This document shows positions 3,904 through 50,845 of a stretch of 64,000 nucleotides of DNA, piece by piece (within the stretch, counting starts at the first letter, position 1; each line of letters opens with the position of its first letter). Origin of the DNA: Toxorhynchites rutilus septentrionalis. Its lineage: Eukaryota; Arthropoda; Insecta; Diptera; Culicidae. The position numbers were made by a program, and so were the translations under genes. The notes beneath the pieces are model-generated. The model did no database searches and was not told where the DNA came from. It saw only the letters and a program-made list of their open reading frames with translations. The DNA is taken from contig NC_073745.1 of NCBI RefSeq assembly GCF_029784135.1, forward strand, positions 274,948,166-275,012,165. The letters run 5' to 3'.

Positions 3904-4181
3904 TTTTCATATACCGCTCCCCTACCCAACTTAGTGACGAAATGGCCTCACCTTAGGATATACCAAGACGGGTCTATGGTACTAGGTGAGGCCGTTTCGT
4001 CACTAAGTTGGTTAGGGGAGCGGTATATGAAAGCAGTACGGAAGAAAGCAGAAGGGGAATTATTTTCTTGTAGCGTGAAAGAGACAGACTGATCACGAGC
4101 GAGCTTCGCCACTAGCGTATTGTGTATTGTTTACAAACAAAACACAGTAGACTTCCAATATGGCTGAAGAGTGGTTTTAAC

Positions 4182-13388: not shown

Positions 13389-13690
13389 ATGGTTGGATAT
13401 GGCAAAGGAGGAAAAGTGAAGGGAAAGGCAAAATCCCGCTCGAACCTTGATCTGGAGTTCCCGCTCGTGTTGATCTGGAGTTCCCCGCAAGGGTAGCTAG
13501 GCCGAGCGCGTTAGTACCAGTGTACCAGTCCACCTAGCCGGCGTTATATAGCTTCGGCCGCCGAAGTGATCGAGTTAGCTGGCAAAGCTGTTCGCGACGA
13601 TAAGAAAACCTGCATTCGGAACAGAACACATTCGGTTCGGTGAACATCAAGACAACAGGCAGTTGCAGCGAGTGGCGAGTGGCAAACGCA
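13389..13690 (+). pseudogene. Histone H2A pseudogene (first unit)
   Basis: Starting at ATG 13389 the frame reads MVGYGKGGKVKGKAKSRSN, matching the N-terminus of canonical H2A (S-G-R replaced by V-G-Y). It then drifts and stops at 13494-13496. After frameshifts, blocks corresponding to AERV, PV, LAGVI and ELAGKAARDDKKT of the histone fold are still readable to about 13620. The upstream region has CAAT-like boxes (attgg at 13129-13133) and a long leader. It cannot make a histone. Confidence 0.85.
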
Positions 13691-14453
13691 ATCGCAAAAC
13701 GGCATCAGGTAACAGAAGAAAAAAGTTTGTTCTTTATACAAACTGCTTTGGCGGCAAATCCAGAACAAGGCGGCATCGAGGGCGTTCGAAATGGTTTTTT
13801 TCAAAACCACGAGTACTAAGTTTTCTAAATTGGAACCATTCCATAAAACAAGGCGCTTTTCAGGGCCATTAAACCTTCCAAAAAAGAGTTTAGGAAATAA
13901 AGTTCAATGCTTTCTAAAACATTATCCAAAATAATAATAAAACACAAATTGATGTTTTCATAATTTGTTTGCCAGGATCTGATGAGTATGTGAATTTGGC
14001 AGTTGTTCTGAGCTTATTGATAGTTGGGGACTTTCCTGATTATTCAATTTTCACCAATTCTTAAATTGTTTCGAGATTGAAAGTACAGTAATCTACAATT
14101 AGTTCGACATTTAGCTAATTGGACGGACATGTAATGTGACTTATTTAGTTGGACATTTTTGTAAACATAGAGATCCAAATTATGATCCCACATTGAAAGT
14201 CGACACTGTACCACTGTCATCGCAAATGTTCAATTACAGGTTAAAATTACCTCCAATCCGACACTGAGTAGTGGTAATGCGACGTGTCATTGAATGTAAT
14301 TTACTGTAAAATATGTCACAAGCTGGATGGGAAGAAATTTTCCAACTGTGAAAGCTGTGGCGAGTGACAACAAATCGCTAAACAGGAAGGTTTAGCCGAA
14401 CAAGATGGGGATATCGAGTGATAACAAAACAATAAACTCTTTAGACTTTTTGT

Positions 14454-14469
14454 GATCCTGAAAAGGACC
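14454..14469 (-). terminator. Histone-type 3' stem-loop, minus orientation
   Basis: Read on the minus strand this is GGTCCTTTTCAGGATC, a 6-bp stem (one G-T wobble) with a TTTC loop, the layout of histone mRNA 3' ends. It recurs in every unit. It suggests that a divergent histone gene was once part of the captured segment, though no coding sequence for one is left. Confidence 0.6.
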
Positions 14470-14629
14470 CTTTTTAGTCTGTATGTGAATCCAACGAGCG
14501 AACAAATCGTAATGAATGTATTTTTTTGCCATCGCTCCCTTTTAACGCTCATTCGTTCGTCTCGTTGGACCCGCCCCTTTGGCTGAGTCTGCCGATTTGT
14601 CTCTATCCTGTGAGTGTGTACCGCTAGAG

Positions 14630-14635
14630 TATAAA
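14630..14635 (+). promoter_or_regulatory. TATA box of a histone-like promoter, one per repeat unit
   Basis: TATAAA in gagtataaaacacg lies about 90 bp before the H2A-like reading. The same box recurs one period later in each unit (about 15948, 17266 and 18585) and at 57432-57437 in the other element copy. Insect replication-dependent histone genes have similarly placed TATA boxes; activity here is not shown. Confidence 0.6.
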
Positions 14636-14718
14636 ACACGCGGACCCCAAAAAAATATCTTATTTTCCTTTAAACCGTAAACCCGTGTGGTTGTACGGCA
14701 TCGGCATCGTGTACTCAA

Positions 14719-17700: not shown

Positions 17701-19700
17701 TTTGGTGGCAAATCCAGAACAAGGCGGCATCGAGGGCGTTCGAAATGGTTTTTTTTCAAAACCACGAGTACTAAGTTTTCTAAATTGGAACCATTCCATA
17801 AAACAAGGCGCTTTTCAGAGCCATTAAACCTTCCAAAAAAGAGTTTAGGAAATAAAGTTCAATGCTTTCTAAAACATTATCCAAAATAATAATAAAACAC
17901 AAATTGATGTTTTCATAATTTGTTTGCCAGGATTTGATGAGTATGTGAATTTGGCAGTTGTTCTGAGCTTATTGATAGTTGGGGACTTTCCTGATTATTC
18001 AATTTTCACCAATTCTTAAATTGTTTCCAGATTTAAAGTACAGTAATCTACAATTAGTTCGACATTTAGCTAATTGGACGGACATGTAATGCGACTTATT
18101 TAGTTGGACATTTTTGTAAACATAGAGATCCAAATTATGACCCCACATTGAAAGTCGACACTGTACCACTGTCATCGCAAATGTTCAATTACAGGTTAAA
18201 ATTACCTCCAATCCGGCACTGAGTGGTGGTAATGCGACGTGCCATTGAATGTAATTTACTGTAAAATATGTCACAAGCTGGATGGGAAGAAATTTTCCAA
18301 CTGTGAAAGCTGTGGCGAGTGACAACAAATCGCTAAACAGGAAGGTTTAGCCGAACAAGATGGGGATATCGAGTGATAACAAAACAATAAACTCTTTAGA
18401 CTTTTTGTGATCCTGAAAAGGACCCTTTTTAGTCTGTATGTGAATCCAACGAGCGAACAAATCGTAATGAATGTATTTTTTTGCCATCGCTCCCTTTTAA
18501 CGCTCATTCGTTCGTCTCGTTGGACCCGCCCCTTTGGCTGAGTCTGCCGATTTGTCTCTATCCTGTGAGTGTGTACCGCTAGAGTATAAAACACGCGGAC
18601 CCCAAAAAAATATCTTATTTTCCTTTAAACCGTAAACCCGTGTGGTTGTACGGCATCGGCATCGTGTACTCAACAAAGGAGGAAAAGAGAAGGGAAAGGC
18701 AAAATCCCGCTCGAACCGTGGTGGTCTGCAATTTCCCGTAGGTGTATCCGCCAATTGCACCGGAAAAGGTAGCTAGGTCGAGCGCGTTAGTACTTGTGTA
18801 CCAGTCCATCTAGCCGGCGTTATATAGTTTCGGCCGCCGGAGTGATCGAGTTAGCTGGCAAAGCTGCTCGCGACGATAAGAAAACCTGCATTCGGAACAT
18901 AACACATTCGGTTCGGTGGACATCAAGACAACAGGCAGTTGCAGCGAATGGCGAGTGGCAAACGCAATCGCAAAACGGCATCAGGTAGCAGAAGAAAAAA
19001 GTTTGTTTATACAAACTGCTTTGGTGGCAAATCCAGAACAAGGCGGCATCGAGGGCGTTCGAAATGGTTTTTTTCAAAACCACGAGTACTAAGTTTTCTA
19101 AATTGGAACCATTCCATAAAACAAGGCGCTTTTCAGAGCCATTAAACCTTCCAAAAAAGAGTTTAGGAAATAAAGTTCAATGCTTTCTAAAACATTATCC
19201 AAAATAATAATAAAACACAAATTGATGTTTTCATAATTTGTTTGCCAGGATTTGATGAGTATGTGAATTTGGCAGTTGTTCTGAGCTTATTGATAGTTGG
19301 GGACTTTCCTGATTATTCAATTTTCACCAATTCTTAAATTGTTTCCAGATTTAAAGTACAGTAATCTACAATTAGTTCGACATTTAGCTAATTGGACGGA
19401 CATGTAATGCGACTTATTTAGTTGGACATTTTTGTAAACATAGAGATCCAAATTATGACCCCACATTGAAAGTCGACACTGTACCACTGTCATCGCAAAT
19501 GTTCAATTACAGGTTAAAATTACCTCCAATCCGGCACTGAGTGGTGGTAATGCGACGTGCCATTGAATGTAATTTACTGTAAAATATGTCACAAGCTGGA
19601 TGGGAAGAAATTTTCCAACTGTGAAAGCTGTGGCGAGTGACAACAAATCGCCAAACAGGAAGGTTTAGCCGAACAAGATGGGAATATCGAGTGATAACAA
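14719..19700 (+). repeat. Tandem array of 1318-bp H2A-pseudogene units
   Basis: Equivalent points fall at 14719, 16037, 17355 and 18674 (periods 1318, 1318 and 1319). The single extra base is an added T in the poly-T run near 17745-17755. The units are nearly identical to each other, while the preceding unit (13389-14718) is clearly more diverged. Each unit contains an H2A pseudogene, a histone-like 3' stem-loop, a spacer, an inverted histone-type stem-loop and a TATA promoter that points into the next H2A pseudogene. The fourth unit is cut off near 19640 by the element's right-end sequence. Confidence 0.9.
15170..15185 (+). terminator. Histone-type 3' stem-loop after an H2A pseudogene
   Basis: GGCGCTTTTCAGAGCC has one mismatched stem pair relative to the canonical stem-loop. 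It lies downstream of the H2A pseudogene and recurs in each unit; the first unit has a further-diverged version at 13852-13867. Confidence 0.7.
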
Positions 19701-19715
19701 AAACACAACACCAAA

Positions 19716-19731
19716 GGTTCTTTTCAGAACC
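19716..19731 (+). terminator. Perfect histone mRNA 3' stem-loop
   Basis: GGTTCTTTTCAGAACC forms a perfect 6-bp stem with a TTTC loop, preceded by ACAACACCAAA. That is the context of a replication-dependent histone 3' end. The same sequence is kept at 57979-57994 in the second element copy, so the end of a true histone gene was part of the captured DNA. Confidence 0.85.
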
Positions 19732-19981
19732 ATCAACATATTCATAAAGAGTAAACAGTAAACTAATCCATTTTTCAGGTAGATAGGTAGGTATTCACGT
19801 AGGTGAAGAAAATAAAACAATATATTTAAAATATATATTTAACAAAAGCTGTCCCCTTTGTATAGTCCTACGTCACTCCGGTTATGTCCCCGACATTACC
19901 CACCCGTCTTTTTTTCACTCATTTATTTATTTTGAATCATTATATTCTGTTCATATCGAACAGTTGATCGATTTTTTTTAT

Positions 19982-20573
19982 ATGGCTGAGGGCGGGAAGG
20001 ATCCCCCATCGACGCCATTGAATATTTCCGATACCGATCCTCCTCCTGAAGAGCAGGAAGATGAAGCAGAAGTTGAGGAAGAAACTTCTGTATATGAAGT
20101 TGGAAGTTCCGAAGATGAGGACATTGACGAAAAACAGGATTTTCGTCCAAAAGAATACCATGAAGGCTCCAAAGGCCCATTCTTTGTATACTTTAGACGA
20201 AAATCTAAACCTCTCAATGTCATTCGTATCTCGAAGGAACTTACTCAGAGGTTTTCTGCAGTTACCGAAATTACACGGATGGGGCCAGACAAACTACGAG
20301 TTGTCGTCCTGACGACCTCTTTGCGATTGAGTATCGCGTATACGTGCCCTGTTGCAACGTCGAAATAGACGGCGTAATAACCGAAAAGGGTTTGACTCGA
20401 AAAAAGATTATCGATGGTGTCGGTCGCTTCAAGAACTCTTCACTAAAAACTGTGAAGATTCTTGCATGCGATCGACTGAAATCTGTGTCACAAAATGACA
20501 AAAATGACAAAAGGGTTCTCAATCGGACAAACTCTTTTCGTGTTACTTTTGAGGGTTCCGCCCGTCCAAACTA
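19982..20573 (+). pseudogene. LOA ORF1, 5' part (gag-like), broken
   Basis: From ATG 19982 there is an acidic N-terminus, then the domain beginning GPFFVYFRRK typical of gag-like proteins of LOA/I/Jockey retrotransposons. The frame is shifted near 20300, where a short conserved segment appears lost, and resumes as IEYRVYVPCCNVEIDGVI. At 20572-20573 (TA) the frame is cut by the giant mariner. It picks up at 35056 in the same frame. The protein would bind element RNA in the nucleoprotein particle. Confidence 0.8.
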
Positions 20574-20598
20574 TTGGGCTGTTTCAAAAGTTTATGAT
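20574..20598 (+). repeat. Left terminal inverted repeat of the giant mariner
   Basis: Seventeen of the first 20 bases match the reverse complement of the right end at 35034-35053. The TA target duplicate lies directly outside. Confidence 0.85.
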
Positions 20599-20604
20599 TT
20601 GCTC

Positions 20605-21919
20605 AGCATCTACTATCCTACACGCGAATGATATGTCCACCCATACCTATCATCGCTCACGCACCGTGTTACAGTCGAATACGACCCATCCACATGCCTA
20701 TCTTATGTCTAGCATAAGGCATCTCAAGTGTTGAGAAAGTTCGTGCACCTCGAGGAAGGTTCTTTTGAAACAAATCAATAGAAGCCATCCTATGCGCGAT
20801 CAGTGTGACTACCCGCACATATCATCGCTCACGCACCACGTTGCAGTCGAATGTGACCCATCCACATGCCTATCTTATGTCTAGCATAAGGCATCTCAAG
20901 TGTTGAGAAAGTTCGTGCACCTCGAGGAAGGTTCTTTTGAAACAAATCAATAGAAGCCATCCTATGCGCGATCAGTGTGACTACCCGCACATATCATCGC
21001 TCACGCACCGTGTTACAGTCGAATACGACCCATCCACATGCCTATCTTATGTCTAGCATAAGGCATCTCAAGTGTTGAGAAAGTTCGTGCACCTCGAGGA
21101 AGGTTCTTTTGAAACAAATCAATAGAAGCCATCCTATGCGCGATCAGTGTGACTACCCGCACATATCATCGCTCACGCACCGTGTTACAGTCGAATACGA
21201 CCCATCCACATGCCTATCTTATGTCTAGCATAAGGCATCTCAAGTGTTGAGAAAGTTCGTGCACCTCGAGGAAGGTTCTTTTGAAACAAATCAATAGAAG
21301 CCATCCTATGCGCGATCAGTGTGACTACCCGCACATATCATCGCTCACGCACCGTGTTACAGTCGAATACGACCCATCCACATGCCTATCTTATGTCTAG
21401 CATAAGGCATCTCAAGTGTTGAGAAAGTTCGTGCACCTCGAGGAAGGTTCTTTTGAAACAAATCAATAGAAGCCATCCTATGCGCGATCAGTGTGACTAC
21501 CCGCACATATCATCGCTCACGCACCGTGTTACAGTCGAATACGACCCATCCACATGCCTATCTTATGTCTAGCATAAGGCATCTCAAGTGTTGAGAAAGT
21601 TCGTGCACCTCGAGGAAGGTTCTTTTGAAACAAATCAATAGAAGCCATCCTATGCGCGATCAGTGTGACTACCCGCACATATCATCGCTCACGCACCGTG
21701 TTACAGTCGAATACGACCCATCCACATGCCTATCTTATGTCTAGCATAAGGCATCTCAAGTGTTGAGAAAGTTCGTGCACCTCGAGGAAGGTTCTTTTGA
21801 AACAAATCAATAGAAGCCATCCTATGCGCGATCAGTGTGACTACCCGCACATATCATCGCTCACGCACCACGTTGCAGTCGAATGTGACCCATCCACATG
21901 CCTATCTTATGTCTAGCAT
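20605..21919 (+). repeat. 172-bp satellite array
   Basis: The phrase catcgctcacgcacc begins at 20651, 20823, 20995, 21167, 21339, 21511, 21683 and 21855: eight units with a strict 172-bp period. Units two and eight share the variant accacgttgcagtcgaatgtg where the others have accgtgttacagtcgaatacg, which hints at exchange between units. Each unit contains the palindrome CTTATG-tctag-CATAAG. The first unit is diverged on its left side. Confidence 0.95.
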
Positions 21920-23239
21920 GTATATTAACTTCGCACAACATCACCACAACGTTCATCCTCGGTAAATTCGTTCCTCGTTCGCATACACGATAGCCATACA
22001 CTAGCCAAAAGATTCCCATACACAATTACTAGCACGCATAAAAGCGTGAGAGGGGGTATTGTTCACATGTCCACGCTCGCTTATCACGAGGTAGCTGCAC
22101 CACATTGATGTAAACGACCCAACACACACAGACGAGCGAGCGAGCGCACGCTTTTTTTCCCCTACTGCATACCTACAGCATACGCTGAGGAGGCATAACA
22201 ATGGAGAAAAAAAACTCGGAGCGAGAGAGCGGTAACTACCCGTGTGGTGCTACTAGCTGCACTGATGCGATGCGTCTTACATGGGAGGTATTTCAATGTT
22301 CGACACACCGTACTGCACAGGGTTCGCATGGCACACGAGAAAGCCACAATCGCCTTATGCCCCTTCGACGTTCAACGCACGACACGACACCACACACTGG
22401 AGTACGTACGTCTCACCACGTAGTGAGGGTAGGGGTTCGACACACGAAACTCACTGAATTCGATACAAGCTCAAAAGGTTTACCCTCCCGGGTGCCGACC
22501 AGACTCACTGGATTCGATACAAGCTCAAAAGGTTTACCCTCCCTGGTGCCGACCAGACTCACTGGATTCGATAGACGTTCGACCCTACCGACAGTAACTT
22601 GACCCCACCCGTACGGCATCGTACTACCGAACATCCATACAAGCTTCGCAAGTTATGCCTCAAACTTTTCACTCACCAACTTTCCCCACAATAGTGTAAA
22701 CATGGTCATACCAACGTTGCCTCGGTATGGGTATATACCACACTGGGGGCATCGTTATAGGAGTGCCTTGGATAGACTTGTACCGCTAGCCGAGACACCA
22801 TGCTGGGTCGGGAAATGTTCACGCACCGCAATCGGTACCAGTGCCGGGTGTCGGTCATATTCCGATGGGGGGTAACCCTACTATTGAACTCGTACTTGTA
22901 CTTGGGCCGTGCCTAAGGTGTTGGTTGTTTCAATAGTTGGTTACTTGTTTCAATAGTTGACATTTTTTCAATAGTTGAACTTTTTTCCAACAGTTTCAGT
23001 TTTCCCGTAGGTAAAGATGATGATGTGTGACCAATGTGTGAATGTGTTGTTTTTTTTTTTCAATAGTCATGTACGCGCCGTTGTCGATGTTATACACACT
23101 GCGTACTGCGGGTGAGAAATAAAACAAACTGTTGTGCTGTGCTGTGCTTGATGTTGGCTTGGTGTTATTGTATTATCGAATTGGACTTAATACCAGTGCC
23201 GGGCCGATGCACACACTGCGTACTGCGAGTGCTGGCTCG
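21920..23239. other. Unique interior of the giant mariner, with short repeats
   Basis: No gene recognised. A 54-bp repeat occurs 2.3 times from 22449 (units starting 22449, 22503 and 22557). A tttcaatagtt motif recurs at 22930-22990. The block 22770-22880 is a diverged direct repeat of 32627-32735, so the same boundary sequence stands on both sides of the large array. Confidence 0.7.
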
Positions 23240-26200
23240 CGCAGTGACAAATTAAACAAACTGTTGCGCTGTTGTGTTGTGTGCGCTGTGTGGGGGAGAC
23301 TTTTCATCACACTTGACACGCGCATTCTTACCCTCGATGTTGCCTTGGTGTTATTGTGTTATCGAATTGGACTTAATATCAGTGCCGGACTGTTGCGCTG
23401 TTGTGTTGTGTGCGCTGTGTGGGGGACTTTTCCAACACTTGACACTTTGCATTCCGGGACGTGGACGCGTTCTGGGACTTGGTGTTATTGCCGACGGGGC
23501 AGTGTTATACACACTGCGTACTGCGAGTGCTGGCTTGCGCAGTGAGAAATTCAACAAACCGTTGCGCTGTTGTGTTGTGTGCGCTGTGTGGGGGACTTTT
23601 CCAACACTTGACACTTTGCATTCCTGGACGTGGACGCGTTCTGGGTCTTAGTGTTATGGTCGACGGGGCAGTGTTTTACACATTGCGTACTGCGGGGGTT
23701 GGCTCGCGCAGCGCTGTTGTGTGCTGTATGCTGGGGGGACTTGGACGCTTTCTGGCACTTAGTGTTATTGTCGGCGGGGCAGTGTTTTACACATTGCGTA
23801 CTGCGAGTGCTGGCTTGCGCAGTGAGAAATTCAACAAACCGTTGCGCTGTTGTGTTGTGTGCGCTGTGTGGGGGACTTTTCCAACACTTGACACTTTGCA
23901 TTCCGGGACGTGGACGCGTTCTGGGACTTGGTGTTATTGCCGACGGGGCAGTGTTATACACACTGCGTACTGCGAGTGCTGGCTTGCGCAGTGAGAAATT
24001 CAACAAACCGTTGCGCTGTTGTGTTGTGTGCGCTGTGTGGGGGACTTTTCCAACACTTGACACTTTGCATTCCTGGACGTGGACGCGTTCTGGGTCTTAG
24101 TGTTATGGTCGACGGGGCAGTGTTTTACACATTGCGTACTGCGGGGGTTGGCTCGCGCAGCGCTGTTGTGTGCTGTATGCTGGGGGGACTTGGACGCTTT
24201 CTGGCACTTAGTGTTATTGTCGGCGGGGCAGTGTTTTACACATTGCGTACTGCGAGTGCTGGCTTGCGCAGTGAGAAATTCAACAAACCGTTGCGCTGTT
24301 GTGTTGTGTGCGCTGTGTGGGGGACTTTTCCAACACTTGACACTTTGCATTCCGGGACGTGGACGCGTTCTGGGACTTGGTGTTATTGCCGACGGGGCAG
24401 TGTTATACACACTGCGTACTGCGAGTGCTGGCTTGCGCAGTGAGAAATTCAACAAACCGTTGCGCTGTTGTGTTGTGTGCGCTGTGTGGGGGACTTTTCC
24501 AACACTTGACACTTTGCATTCCTGGACGTGGACGCGTTCTGGGTCTTAGTGTTATGGTCGACGGGGCAGTGTTTTACACATTGCGTACTGCGGGGGTTGG
24601 CTCGCGCAGCGCTGTTGTGTGCTGTATGCTGGGGGGACTTGGACGCTTTCTGGCACTTAGTGTTATTGTCGGCGGGGCAGTGTTTTACACATTGCGTACT
24701 GCGAGTGCTGGCTTGCGCAGTGAGAAATTCAACAAACCGTTGCGCTGTTGTGTTGTGTGCGCTGTGTGGGGGACTTTTCCAACACTTGACACTTTGCATT
24801 CCGGGACGTGGACGCGTTCTGGGACTTGGTGTTATTGCCGACGGGGCAGTGTTATACACACTGCGTACTGCGAGTGCTGGCTTGCGCAGTGAGAAATTCA
24901 ACAAACCGTTGCGCTGTTGTGTTGTGTGCGCTGTGTGGGGGACTTTTCCAACACTTGACACTTTGCATTCCTGGACGTGGACGCGTTCTGGGTCTTAGTG
25001 TTATGGTCGACGGGGCAGTGTTTTACACATTGCGTACTGCGGGGGTTGGCTCGCGCAGCGCTGTTGTGTGCTGTATGCTGGGGGGACTTGGACGCTTTCT
25101 GGCACTTAGTGTTATTGTCGGCGGGGCAGTGTTTTACACATTGCGTACTGCGAGTGCTGGCTTGCGCAGTGAGAAATTCAACAAACCGTTGCGCTGTTGT
25201 GTTGTGTGCGCTGTGTGGGGGACTTTTCCAACACTTGACACTTTGCATTCCGGGACGTGGACGCGTTCTGGGACTTGGTGTTATTGCCGACGGGGCAGTG
25301 TTATACACACTGCGTACTGCGAGTGCTGGCTTGCGCAGTGAGAAATTCAACAAACCGTTGCGCTGTTGTGTTGTGTGCGCTGTGTGGGGGACTTTTCCAA
25401 CACTTGACACTTTGCATTCCTGGACGTGGACGCGTTCTGGGTCTTAGTGTTATGGTCGACGGGGCAGTGTTTTACACATTGCGTACTGCGGGGGTTGGCT
25501 CGCGCAGCGCTGTTGTGTGCTGTATGCTGGGGGGACTTGGACGCTTTCTGGCACTTAGTGTTATTGTCGGCGGGGCAGTGTTTTACACATTGCGTACTGC
25601 GAGTGCTGGCTTGCGCAGTGAGAAATTCAACAAACCGTTGCGCTGTTGTGTTGTGTGCGCTGTGTGGGGGACTTTTCCAACACTTGACACTTTGCATTCC
25701 GGGACGTGGACGCGTTCTGGGACTTGGTGTTATTGCCGACGGGGCAGTGTTATACACACTGCGTACTGCGAGTGCTGGCTTGCGCAGTGAGAAATTCAAC
25801 AAACCGTTGCGCTGTTGTGTTGTGTGCGCTGTGTGGGGGACTTTTCCAACACTTGACACTTTGCATTCCGGGACGTGGACGCGTTCTGGGTCTTAGTGTT
25901 ATGGTCGACGGGGCAGTGTTTTACACATTGCGTACTGCGGGGGTTGGCTCGCGCAGCGCTGTTGTGTGCTGTATGCTGGGGGGACTTGGACGCTTTCTGG
26001 GACTTAGTGTTATTGTCGGCGGGGCAGTGTTTTACACATTGCGTACTGCGGGGGTTGGCTCGCGCAGCGCTGTTGTGTGCTGTATGCTGGGGGGACTTGG
26101 ACGCTTTCTGGGACTTAGTGTTATTGTCGGCGGGGCAGTGTTTTACACATTGCGTACTGCGGGTGCTGGTGTGCGGGTGTTGTGCACTTGAGACTTGTCA

Positions 26201-29200
26201 TTCCAGGACATGGAATGATTTCACACACACGTACGATTGCATACTACCAGGCGCAAAGCGATTTAATGAAAAAAGAGAGAAGCCGCCAGCGCGGACAGCA
26301 CTAAGCTACCACGGTGGGACTTCTCTCTTACGGAACACGACGCACCCGGGCAAGACTGCGCAAGCTACTGTGCCGCGCCGATGCTGATGGGGCAATGTTA
26401 CACGTACTGCGCGCTGGGTCGCGCAGTGAGAAATTGAACAAACTGTTGTGTGCTGTATGCTGGGGGGACATGGACGCTTTCTGGGACTTAGTGTTATTGT
26501 CGGCGGGGCAGTGTTTTACACATTGCGTACTGCGAGTGCTGGCTTGCGCAGTGAGAAATTCAACAAACCGTTGCGCTGTTGTGTTGTGTGCGCTGTGTGG
26601 GGGACTTTTCCAACACTTGACACTTTGCATTCCGGGACGTGGACGCGTTCTGGGACTTGGTGTTATTGCCGACGGGGCAGTGTTATACACACTGCGTACT
26701 GCGAGTGCTGGCTTGCGCAGTGAGAAATTCAACAAACCGTTGCGCTGTTGTGTTGTGTGCGCTGTGTGGGGGACTTTTCCAACACTTGACACTTTGCATT
26801 CCTGGACGTGGACGCGTTCTGGGTCTTAGTGTTATGGTCGACGGGGCAGTGTTTTACACATTGCGTACTGCGGGGGTTGGCTCGCGCAGCGCTGTTGTGT
26901 GCTGTATGCTGGGGGGACTTGGACGCTTTCTGGCACTTAGTGTTATTGTCGGCGGGGCAGTGTTTTACACATTGCGTACTGCGAGTGCTGGCTTGCGCAG
27001 TGAGAAATTCAACAAACCGTTGCGCTGTTGTGTTGTGTGCGCTGTGTGGGGGACTTTTCCAACACTTGACACTTTGCATTCCGGGACGTGGACGCGTTCT
27101 GGGACTTGGTGTTATTGCCGACGGGGCAGTGTTATACACACTGCGTACTGCGAGTGCTGGCTTGCGCAGTGAGAAATTCAACAAACCGTTGCGCTGTTGT
27201 GTTGTGTGCGCTGTGTGGGGGACTTTTCCAACACTTGACACTTTGCATTCCTGGACGTGGACGCGTTCTGGGTCTTAGTGTTATGGTCGACGGGGCAGTG
27301 TTTTACACATTGCGTACTGCGGGGGTTGGCTCGCGCAGCGCTGTTGTGTGCTGTATGCTGGGGGGACTTGGACGCTTTCTGGCACTTAGTGTTATTGTCG
27401 GCGGGGCAGTGTTTTACACATTGCGTACTGCGAGTGCTGGCTTGCGCAGTGAGAAATTCAACAAACCGTTGCGCTGTTGTGTTGTGTGCGCTGTGTGGGG
27501 GACTTTTCCAACACTTGACACTTTGCATTCCGGGACGTGGACGCGTTCTGGGACTTGGTGTTATTGCCGACGGGGCAGTGTTATACACACTGCGTACTGC
27601 GAGTGCTGGCTTGCGCAGTGAGAAATTCAACAAACCGTTGCGCTGTTGTGTTGTGTGCGCTGTGTGGGGGACTTTTCCAACACTTGACACTTTGCATTCC
27701 TGGACGTGGACGCGTTCTGGGTCTTAGTGTTATGGTCGACGGGGCAGTGTTTTACACATTGCGTACTGCGGGGGTTGGCTCGCGCAGCGCTGTTGTGTGC
27801 TGTATGCTGGGGGGACTTGGACGCTTTCTGGCACTTAGTGTTATTGTCGGCGGGGCAGTGTTTTACACATTGCGTACTGCGAGTGCTGGCTTGCGCAGTG
27901 AGAAATTCAACAAACCGTTGCGCTGTTGTGTTGTGTGCGCTGTGTGGGGGACTTTTCCAACACTTGACACTTTGCATTCCGGGACGTGGACGCGTTCTGG
28001 GACTTGGTGTTATTGCCGACGGGGCAGTGTTATACACACTGCGTACTGCGAGTGCTGGCTTGCGCAGTGAGAAATTCAACAAACCGTTGCGCTGTTGTGT
28101 TGTGTGCGCTGTGTGGGGGACTTTTCCAACACTTGACACTTTGCATTCCGGGACGTGGACGCGTTCTGGGACTTGGTGTTATTGCCGACGGGGCAGTGTT
28201 ATACACACTGCGTACTGCGAGTGCTGGCTTGCGCAGTGAGAAATTCAACAAACCGTTGCGCTGTTGTGTTGTGTGCGCTGTGTGGGGGACTTTTCCAACA
28301 CTTGACACTTTGCATTCCTGGACGTGGACGCGTTCTGGGTCTTAGTGTTATGGTCGACGGGGCAGTGTTTTACACATTGCGTACTGCGGGGGTTGGCTCG
28401 CGCAGCGCTGTTGTGTGCTGTATGCTGGGGGGACTTGGACGCTTTCTGGCACTTAGTGTTATTGTCGGCGGGGCAGTGTTTTACACATTGCGTACTGCGA
28501 GTGCTGGCTTGCGCAGTGAGAAATTCAACAAACCGTTGCGCTGTTGTGTTGTGTGCGCTGTGTGGGGGACTTTTCCAACACTTGACACTTTGCATTCCGG
28601 GACGTGGACGCGTTCTGGGACTTGGTGTTATTGCCGACGGGGCAGTGTTATACACACTGCGTACTGCGAGTGCTGGCTTGCGCAGTGAGAAATTCAACAA
28701 ACCGTTGCGCTGTTGTGTTGTGTGCGCTGTGTGGGGGACTTTTCCAACACTTGACACTTTGCATTCCTGGACGTGGACGCGTTCTGGGTCTTAGTGTTAT
28801 GGTCGACGGGGCAGTGTTTTACACATTGCGTACTGCGGGGGTTGGCTCGCGCAGCGCTGTTGTGTGCTGTATGCTGGGGGGACTTGGACGCTTTCTGGGA
28901 CTTAGTGTTATTGTCGGCGGGGCAGTGTTTTACACATTGCGTACTGCGAGTGCTGGCTTGCGCAGTGAGAAATTCAACAAACCGTTGCGCTGTTGTGTTG
29001 TGTGCGCTGTGTGGGGGACTTTTCCAACACTTGACACTTTGCATTCCGGGACGTGGACGCGTTCTGGGACTTGGTGTTATTGCCGACGGGGCAGTGTTAT
29101 ACACACTGCGTACTGCGAGTGCTGGCTTGCGCAGTGAGAAATTCAACAAACCGTTGCGCTGTTGTGTTGTGTGCGCTGTGTGGGGGACTTTTCCAACACT

Positions 29201-31650
29201 TGACACTTTGCATTCCTGGACGTGGACGCGTTCTGGGTCTTAGTGTTATGGTCGACGGGGCAGTGTTTTACACATTGCGTACTGCGGGGGTTGGCTCGCG
29301 CAGCGCTGTTGTGTGCTGTATGCTGGGGGGACTTGGACGCTTTCTGGCACTTAGTGTTATTGTCGGCGGGGCAGTGTTTTACACATTGCGTACTGCGAGT
29401 GCTGGCTTGCGCAGTGAGAAATTCAACAAACCGTTGCGCTGTTGTGTTGTGTGCGCTGTGTGGGGGACTTTTCCAACACTTGACACTTTGCATTCCGGGA
29501 CGTGGACGCGTTCTGGGACTTGGTGTTATTGCCGACGGGGCAGTGTTATACACACTGCGTACTGCGAGTGCTGGCTTGCGCAGTGAGAAATTCAACAAAC
29601 CGTTGCGCTGTTGTGTTGTGTGCGCTGTGTGGGGGACTTTTCCAACACTTGACACTTTGCATTCCTGGACGTGGACGCGTTCTGGGTCTTAGTGTTATGG
29701 TCGACGGGGCAGTGTTTTACACATTGCGTACTGCGGGGGTTGGCTCGCGCAGCGCTGTTGTGTGCTGTATGCTGGGGGGACTTGGACGCTTTCTGGCACT
29801 TAGTGTTATTGTCGGCGGGGCAGTGTTTTACACATTGCGTACTGCGAGTGCTGGCTTGCGCAGTGAGAAATTCAACAAACCGTTGCGCTGTTGTGTTGTG
29901 TGCGCTGTGTGGGGGACTTTTCCAACACTTGACACTTTGCATTCCGGGACGTGGACGCGTTCTGGGACTTGGTGTTATTGCCGACGGGGCAGTGTTATAC
30001 ACACTGCGTACTGCGAGTGCTGGCTTGCGCAGTGAGAAATTCAACAAACCGTTGCGCTGTTGTGTTGTGTGCGCTGTGTGGGGGACTTTTCCAACACTTG
30101 ACACTTTGCATTCCTGGACGTGGACGCGTTCTGGGTCTTAGTGTTATGGTCGACGGGGCAGTGTTTTACACATTGCGTACTGCGGGGGTTGGCTCGCGCA
30201 GCGCTGTTGTGTGCTGTATGCTGGGGGGACTTGGACGCTTTCTGGCACTTAGTGTTATTGTCGGCGGGGCAGTGTTTTACACATTGCGTACTGCGAGTGC
30301 TGGCTTGCGCAGTGAGAAATTCAACAAACCGTTGCGCTGTTGTGTTGTGTGCGCTGTGTGGGGGACTTTTCCAACACTTGACACTTTGCATTCCGGGACG
30401 TGGACGCGTTCTGGGACTTGGTGTTATTGCCGACGGGGCAGTGTTATACACACTGCGTACTGCGAGTGCTGGCTTGCGCAGTGAGAAATTCAACAAACCG
30501 TTGCGCTGTTGTGTTGTGTGCGCTGTGTGGGGGACTTTTCCAACACTTGACACTTTGCATTCCTGGACGTGGACGCGTTCTGGGTCTTAGTGTTATGGTC
30601 GACGGGGCAGTGTTTTACACATTGCGTACTGCGGGGGTTGGCTCGCGCAGCGCTGTTGTGTGCTGTATGCTGGGGGGACTTGGACGCTTTCTGGCACTTA
30701 GTGTTATTGTCGGCGGGGCAGTGTTTTACACATTGCGTACTGCGAGTGCTGGCTTGCGCAGTGAGAAATTCAACAAACCGTTGCGCTGTTGTGTTGTGTG
30801 CGCTGTGTGGGGGACTTTTCCAACACTTGACACTTTGCATTCCGGGACGTGGACGCGTTCTGGGACTTGGTGTTATTGCCGACGGGGCAGTGTTATACAC
30901 ACTGCGTACTGCGAGTGCTGGCTTGCGCAGTGAGAAATTCAACAAACCGTTGCGCTGTTGTGTTGTGTGCGCTGTGTGGGGGACTTTTCCAACACTTGAC
31001 ACTTTGCATTCCTGGACGTGGACGCGTTCTGGGTCTTAGTGTTATGGTCGACGGGGCAGTGTTTTACACATTGCGTACTGCGGGGGTTGGCTCGCGCAGC
31101 GCTGTTGTGTGCTGTATGCTGGGGGGACTTGGACGCTTTCTGGCACTTAGTGTTATTGTCGGCGGGGCAGTGTTTTACACATTGCGTACTGCGAGTGCTG
31201 GCTTGCGCAGTGAGAAATTCAACAAACCGTTGCGCTGTTGTGTTGTGTGCGCTGTGTGGGGGACTTTTCCAACACTTGACACTTTGCATTCCGGGACGTG
31301 GACGCGTTCTGGGACTTGGTGTTATTGCCGACGGGGCAGTGTTATACACACTGCGTACTGCGAGTGCTGGCTTGCGCAGTGAGAAATTCAACAAACCGTT
31401 GCGCTGTTGTGTTGTGTGCGCTGTGTGGGGGACTTTTCCAACACTTGACACTTTGCATTCCTGGACGTGGACGCGTTCTGGGTCTTAGTGTTATGGTCGA
31501 CGGGGCAGTGTTTTACACATTGCGTACTGCGGGGGTTGGCTCGCGCAGCGCTGTTGTGTGCTGTATGCTGGGGGGACTTGGACGCTTTCTGGCACTTAGT
31601 GTTATTGTCGGCGGGGCAGTGTTTTACACATTGCGTACTGCGGGTGCTGG
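23240..31650 (+). repeat. 449-bp higher-order satellite array
   Basis: The array is GC-rich (for this window) and built from 169-bp and 111-bp sub-units arranged 169+111+169 as a 449-bp higher-order unit. The 111-bp sub-unit, marked by gggtcttagtgttatggtcg, begins near 23630 and recurs 17 times, mostly exactly 449 bp apart, to about 31467. Exceptions are a step of 933 bp (25875 to 26808), where diverged sequence intervenes, and one of 618 bp (27706 to 28324 = 449+169), where an extra 169-bp unit was gained. Open frames of 156-177 codons occur in every unit but follow only from the composition: the period is not a multiple of three. Confidence 0.95.
26163..26450 (+). repeat. Diverged spacer block interspersed in and after the array
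   Basis: The block from gtgctggtgtgcgggtgttgtg through gcaaagcgatttaatgaaaaaagagagaag to gcgctgggtcgcgcagtg interrupts the 449-bp array here. It recurs at about 31645-31940, partly at 32020-32140, and again at 32280-32560. It contains an inverted pair aagagagaag ... cttctctctt. The two best copies are about 5.48 kb apart, so a segment of that size may have duplicated. Confidence 0.75.
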
Positions 31651-32862
31651 TGTGCGGGTGTTGTGCACTTGAGACTTGTCATTCCAGGACATGGAATGAT
31701 TTCACACACACGTACGATTGCATACTACCAGGCGCAAAGCGATTTAATGAAAAAAGAGAGAAGCCGCCAGCGCGGACAGCACTAAGCTACCACGGTGGGA
31801 CTTCTCTCTTACGGAACACGACGCACCCGGGCAAGACTGCGCAAGCTACTGTGCCGCGCCGATGCTGATGGGGCAATGTTACACGTACTGCGCGCTGGGT
31901 CGCGCAGTGAGAAATTGAACAAACTGTTGCGCTGTTGTGTGCTGTATGCTGGGGGGACATGGACGCTTTCTGGGACTTAGTGTTATTGTCGGCGGGGCAG
32001 TGTTTTACACATTGCGTACTGCGGGTGCTGGTGTGCGGGTGTTGTGCACTTGAGACTTGTCATTCCAGGACATGGAATGGTTTCACACACATACGCGGTT
32101 GCATACTACCAGGCGCAGGATGAAATAAAAAAAAAGTAAAGTAATATCCAGCGAGGGGAATGGCTTCACACACGCACTTGGTGTTATAGCATTATCGTAC
32201 TTATCGCCGATGCTGCGTACTGCGGGCGTTGGCTCGCGCAGACTGTTGTGTGCTGTGTTGTGCTGGGGGACAACACTTGACAGTTGTTATTCCCGGCCAT
32301 GGGATGATTTCACACACACGCACGATTGCATACTACCAGGCGCAATGCGATTTAATGAAAAAAGAGAGAAGCAGCCAGCGCGGGCAGCACTAAGCTACCA
32401 CGGTGGGACTTCTCTCTTACGGGACACGACGCACCCGCCCATCACATAGCGCATCGCAAGGGCAATACTGCACAAGCTACTGTGCCGCGCCGATGCTGAT
32501 GGGGCATTGTTACACGTACTGCGTGCTGGGTCGCGCAGTGAGAAATTGAACAAACTGTTGTGCTGTGCTGTGCTGGGGGGGGGGACTTTGCCAAAACATG
32601 CTACTTTGCATTCCAGGACATGGTGCACAGCTTATACCGCTAGCAGAGACACCTCGTTCGATCGGGGCAACTTGGGACACCGTAATCAGTACCAGTGCCG
32701 GGTGTGGGTCGGATTCCGATGGGGGGTGATCCGGGAACATATTTCTTGGACTTAGAATATTGTTCGGACTTAGAATTTTTTCGACTTATGACCTCGTTTC
32801 TGGGACTTAGCCGTAGAACCAGATGTAATGCGTGTTGCATAGATTAAGGCGCAGGGGAATTT

Positions 32863-32915
32863 AATAAAAAAGAGAGAAGCCCCACACATTTAGGGGGGCT
32901 TCTCTCTTTTTTATT
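32863..32915. terminator. Perfect 21-bp hairpin downstream of the mariner transposase
   Basis: Arms at 32863-32883 and 32895-32915 are exact reverse complements around an 11-nt loop. Because of the palindrome, AATAAA is present at the start of the stem on either strand. It begins about 40 bp after the transposase stop at 32957 (minus strand), so it may form the transposase mRNA 3' end. The stem (agagagaagcccc) resembles the shorter hairpins in the diverged spacer blocks. Confidence 0.8.
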
Positions 32916-32956
32916 GGACGATACACAACACATAACATACATGACATAACACTGAC

Positions 32957-34403
32957 CTAGAAGCAGTATTTACCACCGTATTTTATGACCCGCTTCCACC
33001 TCGCAGGTAGGGAATCTATGCCTCTGGCATAGAACGTAGGAGGCTTGCTATCGAAGAACTCTTTTAGGAATGCGCTCATCTCGTCCTTAGTCCTGAAGAG
33101 TTTATTCCTAAGCTTATTACTCAATGACCTGAATAAATGGTAGTCCGATGGACTGATGTCTGGTGAGTAAGGAGGATGGTTCAATATGTTAAATCCCAGG
33201 CTCCTCGCCTTATCTATCGTTTCATGTGCCCTATGGCACGGAGCGTTATCGTGTAGTAGGGGTACCGGCCTATGTTTACTCACTCCCAGTATACCAGCCA
33301 CCTTTTCCAGCTGCTTCTGATATCGTTTACGGTTAACAGATACACCCTTGTCTAGCAATTCCCAGTGTATAATGCCTCGTCGATCCCAAAACACACAGAG
33401 CATGTTCCACTTGCGATTCATCCTGTCTTTGGCGATTGTCTTCGGCATGGCGCCTTTTACGATCCAATGTATGCCTCTGTGAGGCGCAAACATGGGTATC
33501 TTAGATTCATCACAAGTGACCAAATTATCGAGCATACCCTGGTCTCGTTCACTTTGTCTGAGTAGTCGTTGGGCTAGTTTCACCCGCTTTGCAAGGTTGA
33601 CTGGGTCTAGCTTGTGTGGGTGGTATCCCATTCTTTTTGGCACATAGTTTAGTTTATGCAACGTTCGCATAACAGTCGCTGCCGAACAGTTGTATTTCTG
33701 GGCCATAGACCTCGTAGATTGCTGGCTGTTTTGTTTCACATCAGCAAGCAGTGTTGCTGTGTTATCGATTGCCTTCGGACGGCCTTTGCGTGGACGATCC
33801 GCGCAGTTCCTGTCGGTATCGAACCTTTTGTACCACATCGTAACCGTTCTACGAGTAACAGTTTGTCCATATGTGGAATTCAATGCCAAGAGGGTGTCCG
33901 ACACTGAATCACCCATGTCGTAGTGGTGCAAGATGAACATTCTTGTTTCAGTTCTAGATAGTCTTATGGTTTGTATATCATATTGACTAGCATCTATCGG
34001 CTCTAGGACAACTCTGAGTTCTTTCAGAGAGTCTAATTGGATCGTCTGCTGTGTATCAAACGACTCTATGTCTACAGAAGGGGACTGGGGTAGTTGCATC
34101 ACTCTGGATGACGATGCTAGTGGTTCCCATGATACTGATAAGGGTGGCGTTGCTAAGGGGTGGTCAGACCATTGCTGCTCACTATTCGATTCCACGTGTA
34201 GTGGGTCTTGTGTCATTTCGGATGACGATGGCGATGCTAAGGGGTGGTCAGACCATTGCTGCTCGCTCTTCGATTCTTCGTACAGTGGGTCTTGTGTCAT
34301 TTCGGATGGCGATGACGGTGCTAATGGGTGGTCAGACCACTGCTGCTCGCTCTTCGATTCTTCATCCGGATTTATATCTATAACCGGAGAAGGGAATAGC
34401 GAT

Positions 34404-34453
<50 letters not shown>

Positions 34454-34585
34454 TGATGATGAGGACGATGATGACGATGAGGACGACGATGAGGACGACG
34501 ATGCCACTGAGTTAACACAACAAGGACACTTCTTAGGGTGATGAATACGCTTCGATCTTCGCATTGGGTTGGTTTTGCTTTTCAT
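32957..34585 (-). CDS. mariner (DD34D) transposase with a long N-terminal extension
   Basis: The frame codes for 542 residues. About 208-542 is a complete mariner transposase: paired helix-turn-helix region (about 212-315), then the catalytic domain with Asp359 (TCDES), Asp446 (LLHDNAPCH) and Asp481 (PYSPDISPSD). The last two are separated by 34 residues, the mariner DD34D spacing. No stop or frameshift is present. The first 207 residues are foreign to the family: a basic start with a CPCC cluster (Cys20, 22, 23), a run of 34 serines (29-62), three 28-residue repeats (about 75-145) built around SEQQWSDHPLA, and a linker. The start is the first ATG in frame. The enzyme would cut and paste elements with the matching terminal repeats at TA. 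Confidence 0.9.
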
Positions 34586-34660
34586 GTGGTTCCCACGAGT
34601 CGCTAGGGAAAATATATGGTCGACTGTGGACTACCCTGCCATACCACAGCAAGGGCAACA

Positions 34661-34963
34661 TTACTGTGAGGTTTGCCCCGGTACCCCACAGGGTCCGTTC
34701 GCGGCTTCATATTTGTATCGCCCCTTCCACCATTCAACTATCGGCACGGATCGTATACACACCTTAAGCTTTGGGGCCCGAGTGCCCCCTTCTCTGTCTG
34801 CATACGACCTAAGGTCCCACCGAGGTTGGTTACTCGATCTTTCCGAAGGTTGCTCGTATCCCAGTCGGTACCACGGGGAGGTAGAGATAGGAGTTGCTGA
34901 ATCATAGGCTACCATCATAAATGGATCATCATAATGAGTTATATGTTCGCTGTATTCAGCCAT
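34661..34963 (-). CDS. Hypothetical protein upstream of the transposase
   Basis: A 100-residue open frame begins with ATG at 34961-34963, 90 bp from the right terminus of the giant mariner and on the transposase strand. It is rich in Tyr, Ser and Pro (for example HITHYDDPFMM). It is not recognised. Possibilities are a 5' exon of the transposase gene (a GTAATG donor and a CCCTAG acceptor flank 34594-34664, but their phases do not fit a join to the transposase frame), a second element protein, or a chance frame. Confidence 0.4.
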   Translation of the reverse strand: MAEYSEHITHYDDPFMMVAYDSATPISTSPWYRLGYEQPSERSSNQPRWDLRSYADREGGTRAPKLKVCIRSVPIVEWWKGRYKYEAANGPCGVPGQTSQ

Positions 34964-35055
34964 TTACCGACCACTGTTTAATATATACATGTGGCCCCGA
35001 AAGCAGTGCATAAGTATTGATCCATCCTTTCCAAAACTTTTGCAACACACCAATA

Positions 35056-35833: not shown

Positions 35834-36877
35834 TTCAGTGCAAGAGGTCAAGGATTTGACCACTGTAATACAGTGGAATTGCAGAAGCATCATCCCTAAA
35901 CTAGATCAATTTAAATTTTTAGTTCATAGTTCTAACTGTGATGTATTTTCCCTCTGTGAAACATGGCTTTCTTCAGCCGACGAGCTGAATTTCCACGATT
36001 TCAACACTATTCGCCTCGATCGAAATGACTCGTTTGGTGGCGTACTATTGGGGATCAAAAAATGTCACTCCTTCTATAGAGTCACTCTCCCATCGATGAC
36101 AGGCATTGAAGTTGTCGCTTGCCAGACACAAATCAATGGCAAAGACTTCTGCATTGCCACGATATATATTCCTCCAAGAACCATGGTCGGCCGCCATCAG
36201 TTTTTTGATATCATCGAGGCATTGCCGGAGCCGCGGCTAATCTTAGGTGACCTCAACTCCCATGGAACAGCATGGGGGTCACACTACAATGACAGCCGTG
36301 CCACGTTGATTTATGATCTGTGCGACAACTTCAACATGACAGTTTTAAATACAGGGGAAGCAACTAGGATAGCCAACCCTCCTGCACGGGCAAGTATGCT
36401 AGACATATCACTTTGCTCTTCTTCGTTATCCCTGGATTGCACGTTGAAGGTAATCCAAGATCCCCACGATAGTGATCACCTGCCAATAATTTTATCGATC
36501 GCCAATGAATCAGGTTCTCGTGAGTCAGTCGATATTGCGTATGACCTCACGAAAAATATTGACTGGAGAAAATTTGCAGAAACAATATCTGAAGCACTTG
36601 TTTCAATGCATGAACTTCCTCCACTCGAAGAGTATAACTTTATATCGAGTTTGATTTATGAAAGCGCACTTCAAGCTCAAAAGAAACGTGTTCCTGCTAC
36701 CACTTTCCGACGTCGTCCTCCATCACTTTGGTGGGACAAGGAGTGTTCAAAGGTCTACCTTGAAAAATCATCCGCTTTCAAAAAATTCAGGAAAACTGGA
36801 TTAGTGGAATGGTTTCGAAAGTACCAAGCTCTAGAAGCCAAACTAAAAGGTGTGATTAAAGCAAAAAAGCGAGGATA
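35826..36877 (+). CDS. LOA ORF2, endonuclease part
   Basis: An apurinic-type endonuclease domain from ATG 35826. Catalytic motifs are visible: WNCRSI, SLCETWLSS, GDLNSHGTAWG and DSDHLPII. It nicks the target so that reverse transcription can be primed. The open frame reaches the ITmD37E insertion at 36878. Across that insertion (one TA kept) the frame continues unbroken into 38178. Confidence 0.9.
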
Positions 36878-38175
36878 AAGGGTGTGTCACATCAAATTGC
36901 ATCACGGAAAAAACGCTGTAGAAACTCGCCCAGTAGACCGATCCTTTTGAAAATTTTAGACAGTAAAACAAAAACTATTAAACAACTTTTGGCATTTTCT
37001 TTTTATTCATACTTCGAGCCCAAGCCCGTATGCTCGTACCTTCCTCATTACCCCGTCCATAAGGTTCTGTACAACGTCAGGTTGTAGTTTTTTTTGAACA
37101 GAAATTCATTTTCTCTTGAAGTCCGCCTCCGATTTGACAACTTTTGGGTTCTTCCGGAGGGCCTGCTTCATAATCGCCCAATATCTCTCTATTGGGCGAA
37201 GCTCCGGCGCGTTGGGCGGGTTCATTTCCTTTGGCACGAAGGTGACCCCGTTGGCTTCGTACCACTCCAACACGTCCTTTGAATAGTGGCACGAAGCAAG
37301 ATCCGGCCAGAAGATGGTCGGGCCCTCGTGCTGCTTCAATAGTGGTAGTAAGCGCTTCTGTAGGCACTCCTTAAGGTAAACCTGCCCGTTTACCGTGCCG
37401 GTCATCACGAAGGGGGCGCTCCGCTTTCCGCAAGAGCAGATCACTTGCCACACCATGTACTTTTTGGCAAACTTGGATAGTTTCTGCTTGCGAATCTCCT
37501 CCGGAACGCTGAATTTGTCTTCTGCGGAGAAGAACAACAGGCCCGGCAGCTGACGAAAGTCCGCTTTGACGTAGGTTTCGTCGTCCATTACCAGGCAATG
37601 CGGCTTCGTCAGCATTTCGGTGTACAGCTTCCGGGCTCGCTCCTTCCCTACCATGTGTTGCCTTTCGTCGCGGTTAGGAGCCTTCTGAACCTTGTATGTA
37701 CGCAGGCCCTCCCGCTGCTTAGTCCGCTGCACGAATGAACTTGACAAATTCAGCTTATTGGCGACATCCCGGACCGAACTTCTCGGATCACGTCTAAACT
37801 GCTTAACTACGCGCTTGTGATCTTTTTCACTGACGGAGCATCCATTTTTGCCGTTCTTCACCTTCCGGTCGATGGTTAGGTTCTCGAAGTATCGTTTTAG
37901 TACTCTGCTGACCGTGGATTGGACGATTCCCAGCATCTTACCGATGTCCCGATGTGACAACTCCGGATTATCGAAATGAGTGCACAGGATTAATTCACGA
38001 CGCTCTTTTTCGTTCGACGACATTTTTCCAAATTTACGAAAAATTGACAGTGAAGCATGGCCAACGTGATCTATACACTCTTATCTGATTATAAGCGAAA
38101 GCTGAAGATATAATTCTTAAAAATTAAATTTCTACAGCGTTTTTTCCGTGATGCAATTTGATGTGACACACCCTT
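36878..38175 (-). mobile_element. ITmD37E transposon, copy 1 (1298 bp)
   Basis: Long inverted repeats begin AAGGGTGTGTCACATC at both ends, flanked by TA at 36876-36877 and 38176-38177. The transposase gene lies on the minus strand. It splits LOA ORF2 between endonuclease and reverse transcriptase. Excision with one TA kept rejoins the frame. Confidence 0.95.
37106..38023 (-). pseudogene. ITmD37E transposase, copy 1, truncated by a stop
   Basis: The frame of 305 residues has an N-terminal helix-turn-helix region (SHRDIGKMLGI) and the catalytic residues of MDDETYVK, FWPDLASCH and APELRPIERYW, with 37 residues between the second Asp and the Glu. Compared with the 325-residue copy at 49622-50599 it ends early: the codon after KRK is TGA where the other copy has TGG (Trp). 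The catalytic core is complete, so loss of function is not certain. Confidence 0.85.
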
Positions 38176-38177
38176 TA

Positions 38178-49137: not shown

Positions 49138-49451
49138 GCCTAGCCCCAAACCGAGTCAACTGCCCCTACTCGCATGTTCTTCTCGGACAACAACAGTCCA
49201 CTGGAGAGAACGGCGATCTCTTCGAAGGTATTGCCCATGACAGTTTCCACCGTGAAGAAGTATTTTTCTAATATCGAACTCTAGAGTAGAGGTATTGGAA
49301 AATCGAAAATAATTATATCCAATGTGCAGCGGTTCTAAGCTAACATGTGGCTGAGTGGAGAATTTTTTATCAAATTTAAAGAACAAGTACTACCAATTTT
49401 GATCCACAATGGCCAATCCGCATGTGATTGAACTGGAAGATTTTTTCACTA

Positions 49452-50751: not shown

Positions 50752-50845
50752 TATGCAGCTTCCATTGGGGTTTCCAGTAAAAATAGGTAAATGCTCAATT
50801 ACTTTTAAAATATTTGGCACTGTGTTACACAATTCGTTCTATTTT

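Follow-up and report, generated by a model that had tools for sequence, protein, structure and literature searches.

A young family of giant mariner elements with open transposases and a probably ribosomal DNA-derived interior in Toxorhynchites rutilus septentrionalis

The mariner is the textbook example of a minimal transposon. According to the available part of one account, most mariners are about 1.2-1.3 kb long and contain a single open reading frame (ORF) (PMC7325037). Enlarging a mariner from 1.3 to 6.5 kb is reported in the accessible text of another study to lower its efficiency threefold, and a different group cited there observed a twentyfold drop (PMC5449632), so size alone does not forbid movement. 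The words Tc1 and mariner do not occur in the main text, as available, of a review on giant transposons (PMC6431247). Here we describe a complete mariner of 14,480 bp (positions 20574-35053), with TA on each side, which lies within ORF1 of a LOA copy in a 64,000-nucleotide stretch of the Toxorhynchites rutilus septentrionalis genome (contig NC_073745.1; the whole stretch is hereafter called the window). Considered along with its relatives in the same genome, we assign a probability of about 0.84 to the reading that it belongs to a young family of autonomous giant mariners, the interior of which comes largely from a ribosomal DNA (rDNA) unit.

With Mos1-type mariners the element shares helix-turn-helix and catalytic homology, the DD34D motif, the TA duplication and 20-bp ends. 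It departs from the typical 1.2-1.3 kb, single-ORF plan in the length of its family (7.3-21.7 kb), in a transposase of 542 amino acids with a serine-rich extension, in an rDNA-like interior and in a ribozyme motif. An internal satellite of variable copy number is also described, in the accessible parts of two papers, for miDNA4 of Xenopus tropicalis (PMC12628747, PMC9659126), however this is a non-autonomous Tc1/mariner miniature inverted-repeat element, whereas the window element is giant and encodes a transposase. Similarly, internal tandem repeats of the Tetris foldback element of Drosophila virilis expand to satellite-like arrays, however Tetris is apparently non-autonomous, its repeats are situated within the terminal inverted repeats (TIRs), and ribosomal RNA (rRNA) sequence is unmentioned in the available portion of that paper (PMC4079207). 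Clustered Tc1/mariner copies, for which a rolling circle was proposed, are known from the text consulted of PMC9659126; the rows of the present family differ in having a 31-bp spacer, several loci and rDNA-like repeats. R2-type ribozymes resembling that of hepatitis delta virus (HDV) (PMC3774820) and 18S-inserted retrotransposons have the drz-agam-1 motif at the 5' end, whereas in the window the motif is found also in the leader of a DNA-transposon transposase. Among the matches listed from open-access papers, there was no giant or satellite-carrying mariner and no ribozyme in a DNA transposon, and an autonomous mariner combining an rDNA-like interior with a ribozyme leader is unreported among them. 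An earlier note on this DNA, made from the letters alone, knew of no described mariner of this form.

The outermost 20 bases of the element, with TTGGGCTGTTTCAAAAGTTT at the left edge and AAACTTTTGCAACACACCAA at the right edge, match in inverted orientation at 17 positions. Taken alone, these ends are modest evidence for the borders; TA-flanked inverted pairs that span at most 20 kb and reach at least 17/20 are rare in the window, numbering 37 among 3,521,963 pairs, the element's own included. When the flanks are joined with one TA, a single LOA ORF1 frame of 380 codons results, continuing through a stretch that we label zinc-knuckle-like, and at 22 of the 39 left ends examined elsewhere in the same genome, the same end adjoins TA and flanking sequence that is unrelated on comparison by eye. 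As the ORF1 frame joins and the same end meets unrelated flanks at TA, two independent results, the borders are settled and a genuine insertion at TA is confirmed. The earlier note had given TA on both sides, the inverted ends and the exact coordinates, all of which are borne out by the end-pair scan and the other genomic copies; its restored host ORF1 holds for the 380-codon joined frame but not for a whole intact ORF1, because an apparent frameshift is present near 20310. The host LOA copy is fairly young: its ORF2 runs through 1,225 codons free of internal stops when an inserted DD37E element is skipped. A small mariner nested around the transposase was considered and rejected: in a search confined to TA-flanked pairs scoring 17/20 or better and spanning up to 20 kb, the ORF is enclosed by none but the element's own ends.

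The transposase, for which the earlier note had proposed an intact DD34D ORF in a mariner about ten times the usual size, stands on both counts. Its catalytic triad is D359, D446 and D481, with the DD34D spacing of 34; residues 212-540 align with Mos1 (E 5.2e-48), which marks the protein as homologous to Mos1/SETMAR, and PF01359 and PF17906 are both above cut-off. The first 206 residues constitute the serine-rich extension, containing 28-residue repeats. All 11 complete transposase genes fetched from the same genome have an open frame (542, 538 or 536 amino acids), and among seven that were compared the length variants are in-frame differences. Between non-identical pairs of these seven genes there are 9-16 synonymous differences and 0-5 amino-acid replacements, nearly all in the extension, where the alignment of the repeats is uncertain; this is the pattern expected of coding sequence. 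In the catalytic part the amino acids are invariant, with 0-2 synonymous differences. That the ORFs are open and the copies near-identical may be regarded as an indirect sign of transposition activity. A transposase search of genomic and viral contig collections yielded no relative, and an AlphaFold model from the single sequence was poor (mean predicted local distance difference test score 38.9), hence no structural reading was used.

Our search of the same genome covered 902.6 Mb in 514 contigs (C numbers below) and gave 178 first-look left-end candidates, of which the best 40 were scored, all being 99-100% identical. Flanks were examined at 39 left ends (38 of the scored 40 and one in C489), each adjoined by TA; most have C before the TA, to which no meaning is assigned, the ranking favouring matches that include TA and the sample not being random. 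For nine elements the fetched sequence includes both ends, and their lengths range from 7.3 to 21.7 kb (Table 1). Each contains 172-bp units and 449-type repeats in differing amounts, and in the seven of form A (defined below), whose transposase DNA is 99.3-100% identical, the internal order is constant. Since all nine complete copies carry both repeat types, the repeats travel with the element, and since their amount differs between copies, it keeps changing. A comparison of array amounts between copies, as the earlier note had proposed, reveals differences, and its two suggestions, a lineage adapted to large cargo or satellite growth after insertion, are each right in part: the repeats travelled, and their amounts vary.

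Table 1. Features of the window element and complete elements of the family (TIR, terminal inverted repeat; ETS, external transcribed spacer; C, contig)
Feature	Position or locus	Strand	Length, basis or remark
Left TA target duplication	20572..20573	.	TA at 39/39 left ends examined
Left TIR	20574..20593	+	17/20 against right end; family matches 99-100% identical
172-bp array, 7.4 units, with TIR-like stretch per unit (15/20, TA before)	20648..21919	+	repeat scan; shuffles
Mid, probable 5' ETS	21925..23087	-	starts 70 bp past the 5' end of 18S in both form-B (rRNA-carrying) copies traced to the right end
Short TIR-like direct repeats of TTGTTTCAATAGTTG type	22920..23069	+	shuffle tests
Array of 449-bp higher-order units (169+169+111), diverged at its edges; probably repeats of the intergenic spacer	23088..31650	-	adjacency; strand taken from that of 18S in related copies
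Perfect palindrome of 21 bp with AATAAA inside, downstream of transposase stop	32863..32915	.	sequence
Mariner transposase, 542 amino acids, DD34D, with serine-rich N-terminal extension of about 206 residues	32957..34585	-	ORF, Mos1 alignment, Pfam
Ribozyme motif of HDV type (drz-agam-1) within the 5' leader of the transposase gene; weak P1	34788..34903	-	Rfam 47.2 bits
Right TIR	35034..35053	-	17/20 against left end
Right TA target duplication	35054..35055	.	TA-flanked end pair and joined LOA ORF1 frame
Complete elements	C5		7261, 9506 and 9955 bp; both ends and TA
Complete element	C1:111.4 Mb		8310 bp; both ends and TA
Complete element	C13		10293 bp; both ends and TA
Complete element	C489		12092 bp; both ends and TA
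Complete element	window		14480 bp; both ends and TA
Complete element	C3:203.6 Mb		20760 bp; both ends and TA
Complete element	C2:163.9 Mb		21717 bp; right end with one mismatch

From the left, the interior of the window copy consists of the 172-bp array, a 1.2-kb segment here called mid, diverged repeats, the 449-bp array, further diverged repeats, the transposase and its leader. One of the seven full 172-bp units deviates, at five bases. With an exact 42-base anchor, 18 units of the 449-bp repeat were located, a procedure that biases the set towards alike units; 15 of them differ by one base in total, the last is truncated with 73 differences, and two at irregular spacing were left out of the comparison. 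Among edge repeats above 50 bp in length, similarity is mostly 79-89%, with one 320-bp pair at 97.5%. The intact LOA ORF2 and transposase bound the change since insertion at about 1.5% (the probability of no stop being 0.04 at 1.5%), a bound that counts substitutions only and serves as supporting evidence. As most of the edge repeats are 8-21% diverged, most of this divergence predates the insertion, which argues that the arrays arrived together with the element. Neither the 449-bp pattern in a genomic contig collection nor the repeat and ribozyme patterns in a viral contig collection detected a relative.

Resemblance to the element's ends was noticed inside the repeats as well. For the stretch in the 172-bp unit, one of 300 shuffles was as good, and in a second test, which comprised ten comparisons with 200 shuffles, 2/200 and 4/200 were as good against the two ends; for the direct repeats within mid, which resemble the left end, the figures are 14/300 and 4/200. 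These motifs could be extra transposase sites. A similar motif in the 449-bp unit was set aside, being within chance in one test (207/300 shuffles as good) and borderline in the other (13/200), and it counts against the reading given at the outset.

On the basis of the sequence following the 172-bp array, 13 loci could be typed. Form A, with the order left end, 172-bp array, mid, 449-bp array, transposase, leader and right end, is represented by eight (the window, C489, C5, C13, C476, C1:111.4, C2:11.7 and C3:273.9 Mb). The other five (C3:203.6, C2:163.9, C2:190.2, C3:194.4 and C1:89.0 Mb) are of form B, which has the same left end, and in which up to 660 bp of sequence from the internal transcribed spacer 2 (ITS2)/28S side, 5.8S, ITS1 and 18S stand between the 172-bp array and mid. 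Two form-B loci, C3:203.6 and C2:163.9 Mb, are complete, with TA at each end and an open transposase. The Rfam scores are 892 and 633 bits for the 18S pieces, the latter for the 5' piece against the eukaryotic 18S model, and 90 bits for 5.8S; additionally, the 530-loop and 3'-region motifs agree exactly with what we take to be the 18S motifs. The 18S-ITS1-5.8S order within the element is clearest at C3:203.6 and C2:190.2 Mb and is absent from form A, the window copy included. At C2:163.9 Mb the 18S 3' piece is lacking in the comparison and about 4.7 kb of other DNA sits inside mid, and at C1:89.0 and C3:194.4 Mb the ribosomal part is rearranged or diverged. Mid is continuous with 18S in form B, and the 172-bp unit has 19-35 bp in common with the ITS2/28S side. 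The earlier note had described the interior as mainly satellite; arrays are indeed present, however the 'satellite' is most likely ribosomal spacer, because it flanks 18S/5.8S-like sequence in the longer copies, and this identity, the ribozyme motif in the leader and the head-to-tail rows had all been missed.

The 18S sequence is split by a non-long-terminal-repeat (non-LTR) retrotransposon with endonuclease, reverse transcriptase and RNase H, here termed R7-like, and at two loci several of these occur in a row. Such 18S-inserted elements, which bear drz-agam-1 motifs and are lined up with pieces of 18S separating them, are seen at 655-5532 of stretch L028 and similarly in L009, L010 and L027. 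Separately, an Rfam R2 RNA element (41.9 bits against a cut-off of 38) is present at 4091-4267 of L026, a stretch beyond a form-B left end.

On the transposase strand, the leader of the mariner gene matches the Rfam drz-agam-1 model with 47.2 bits against a cut-off of 37. P2, P3, L3, P4 and J4/2 are present in the alignment, in which we also read a catalytic C. P1 lies outside the modelled part of the match, and a pairing search of the mariner leader found no unbroken helix of 6-7 pairs, the best candidates having one mismatch or five pairs. The region folds no better than its shuffles (z 0.67; 150 of 200 at least as stable). The same model scored at the 5' end of five copies of the 18S-inserted retrotransposon in the scanned loci, the 5' leader of which is about 82% identical to that of the mariner across 310 bp, reaching both start codons. 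For R2, the accessible text of one study reports that P1 mismatches are uncommon and may explain activity lost in vitro, and that rRNA sequence can form part of P1 (PMC3774820). In our reading of the retrotransposon copies, rRNA sequence can provide one P1 strand with seven pairs. The motif in the mariner leader is best described as a putative HDV-like ribozyme.

At 17 of the 39 left ends, a right end with its TA comes first, then a 31-bp spacer of the same sequence every time, that is, the copies form head-to-tail rows. The identical junction was found on C2, C3 and smaller contigs. In C489 a unique flank comes first and the row follows; C3:273.9 Mb resembles it in having a unique flank, followed after 12.5 kb by a junction, with the interval outside the fetched sequence. 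At C3:140.4 Mb a link to the next junction, over a distance of 37 kb, is conjectural. Because independent duplications would carry the flank of their own site, the shared junction suggests that a first row existed prior to dispersal. Rows may have spread as a whole via their outer ends or as circles.

The evidence permits the alternatives to be weighed against each other. That a short ordinary mariner entered LOA and the satellite grew or was inserted at the window locus afterwards agrees with the near-identity of the central 449-bp units, the present copy number of which must be recent, and with the variable repeat amounts; both repeat types, however, keep one order throughout the nine complete elements, and the divergence of most edge repeats far exceeds what the time since insertion permits, which makes this account very improbable. 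An rDNA-derived satellite dispersed by recombination or circular DNA, in which a mariner resides in the spacer by chance and its ends are idle on the whole unit, would explain why the rows share one junction and why element-like pieces occur in 3 of 20 small contigs sampled. We nevertheless hold it to be improbable, since at four loci (C1:111.4, C2:163.9, C3:203.6 Mb and the window) both ends are bordered by TA and unrelated flanking sequence, and LOA ORF1 is continuous over the window site. Least credible of all is an assembly artefact or misjoin: near-identical arrays are hard to assemble, and array lengths and the chromosomal placement of rows may be wrong, yet the architecture recurs at several independent positions with clean TA borders.

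The direction of change between the two forms is a separate question. A mariner with repeats of its own that later captured a host 18S-5.8S segment, giving form B from form A, would fit the predominance of form A among the typed loci and the near lack of 28S, as for a captured piece. This order of events is rather unlikely in our estimate, as mid sits adjacent to 18S, where a 5' ETS belongs, and the 172-bp unit shares sequence with the ITS2/28S side, both of which favour loss without proving it. Most simply, form B would be the older one and form A, the window copy probably included, would have lost the rRNA genes; the reverse is less likely.

Several observations weigh against an autonomous family with a ribosomal interior. 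Only two of the five form-B loci were traced to the right end. At C3:194.4 Mb no transposase was found in the 19.9 kb fetched and the copy is probably broken; the 19.8 kb fetched at C2:190.2 Mb ends inside the retrotransposon row. At C3:203.6 Mb, 18S pieces and the retrotransposons inserted in 18S account for about 11 kb of the length, and at C2:163.9 Mb the length includes one retrotransposon with about 4.7 kb and 3.5 kb of unassigned DNA; this material may have entered the two longest elements after insertion. At C3:203.6 Mb, moreover, the 172-bp array is down to 2.3 units and the 449-type repeats to about 1 kb, diverged. Because 18S and 5.8S in the element deviate at strongly conserved letters, the rRNA of form B is probably non-functional. 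As for 28S, one 80-nt large-subunit (LSU) match, in L025, was the only one in the scanned loci. Mid is probably ETS and the 449-bp repeats are probably intergenic spacer (IGS), judged by adjacency; 20 contigs and 12 further stretches sampled for host rDNA contained no nuclear 18S or 28S and one LSU match of bacterial or organelle type. Mid- and 449-like pieces also exist outside complete elements, as contig C6 has them in a different tandem order, mixed with other repeats, and its sampled part contains no rRNA gene. Array lengths may be exact only as far as the assembly is, and movement itself was not seen, being deduced from the copies. As a separate observation on C6 (L052, L079-L081), its mid- and 449-like pieces adjoin a repeat of about 71 bp, and the same 71-bp repeat occupies part of the 382-kb C15 (L060).

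Under the favoured reading of a young autonomous family, the transposase would cut the whole unit and paste it into TA, form A would have arisen from form B through loss of the 5.8S-ITS1-18S part between the 172-bp array and the ETS, and array length would change through unequal exchange. A first row would have arisen once, by rolling circle or unequal exchange, and then have been dispersed, perhaps by transposition using the outermost ends. The ribozyme motif, common to the mariner and the 18S-inserted retrotransposon, might release the transposase mRNA from an upstream transcript in the manner of R2-type ribozymes. A more speculative extension, which we think doubtful, is that the mariner acts as a mobile rDNA unit, whose rows would be transcribed from an ETS-type promoter, whose transposase mRNA would be freed by the ribozyme and whose array motifs would provide extra sites, moving as units or concatemers and seeding rDNA-like clusters, and landing sites for the 18S-inserted retrotransposon, around the chromosomes.

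The window contains further repeated features. About five tandem units of 1,318 bp, 95-99% alike and ending in a histone 3' stem-loop, occupy 13403-19915 and presumably represent histone H2A pseudogenes, judged from the frame; a related copy at 55765-58179 shows 86% similarity within the unit and 96-97% in its flanking sequence. Two DD37E Tc1/mariner elements (36876-38177 and 49450-50753), one of them inside LOA ORF2, are 97.8% identical, with the DD37E spacing confirmed. A tandem repeat of 118 and 224 bp lies at 46401-47050.

A 7-22 kb family with open transposases would widen the size limit tested for mariners, which extends over 1.3-6.5 kb in the available text of PMC5449632. A DNA transposon and a retrotransposon share a leader with a ribozyme motif. 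If the reading is true, the family would offer a concrete route for the spread of ribosomal sequence and repeats around the genome.

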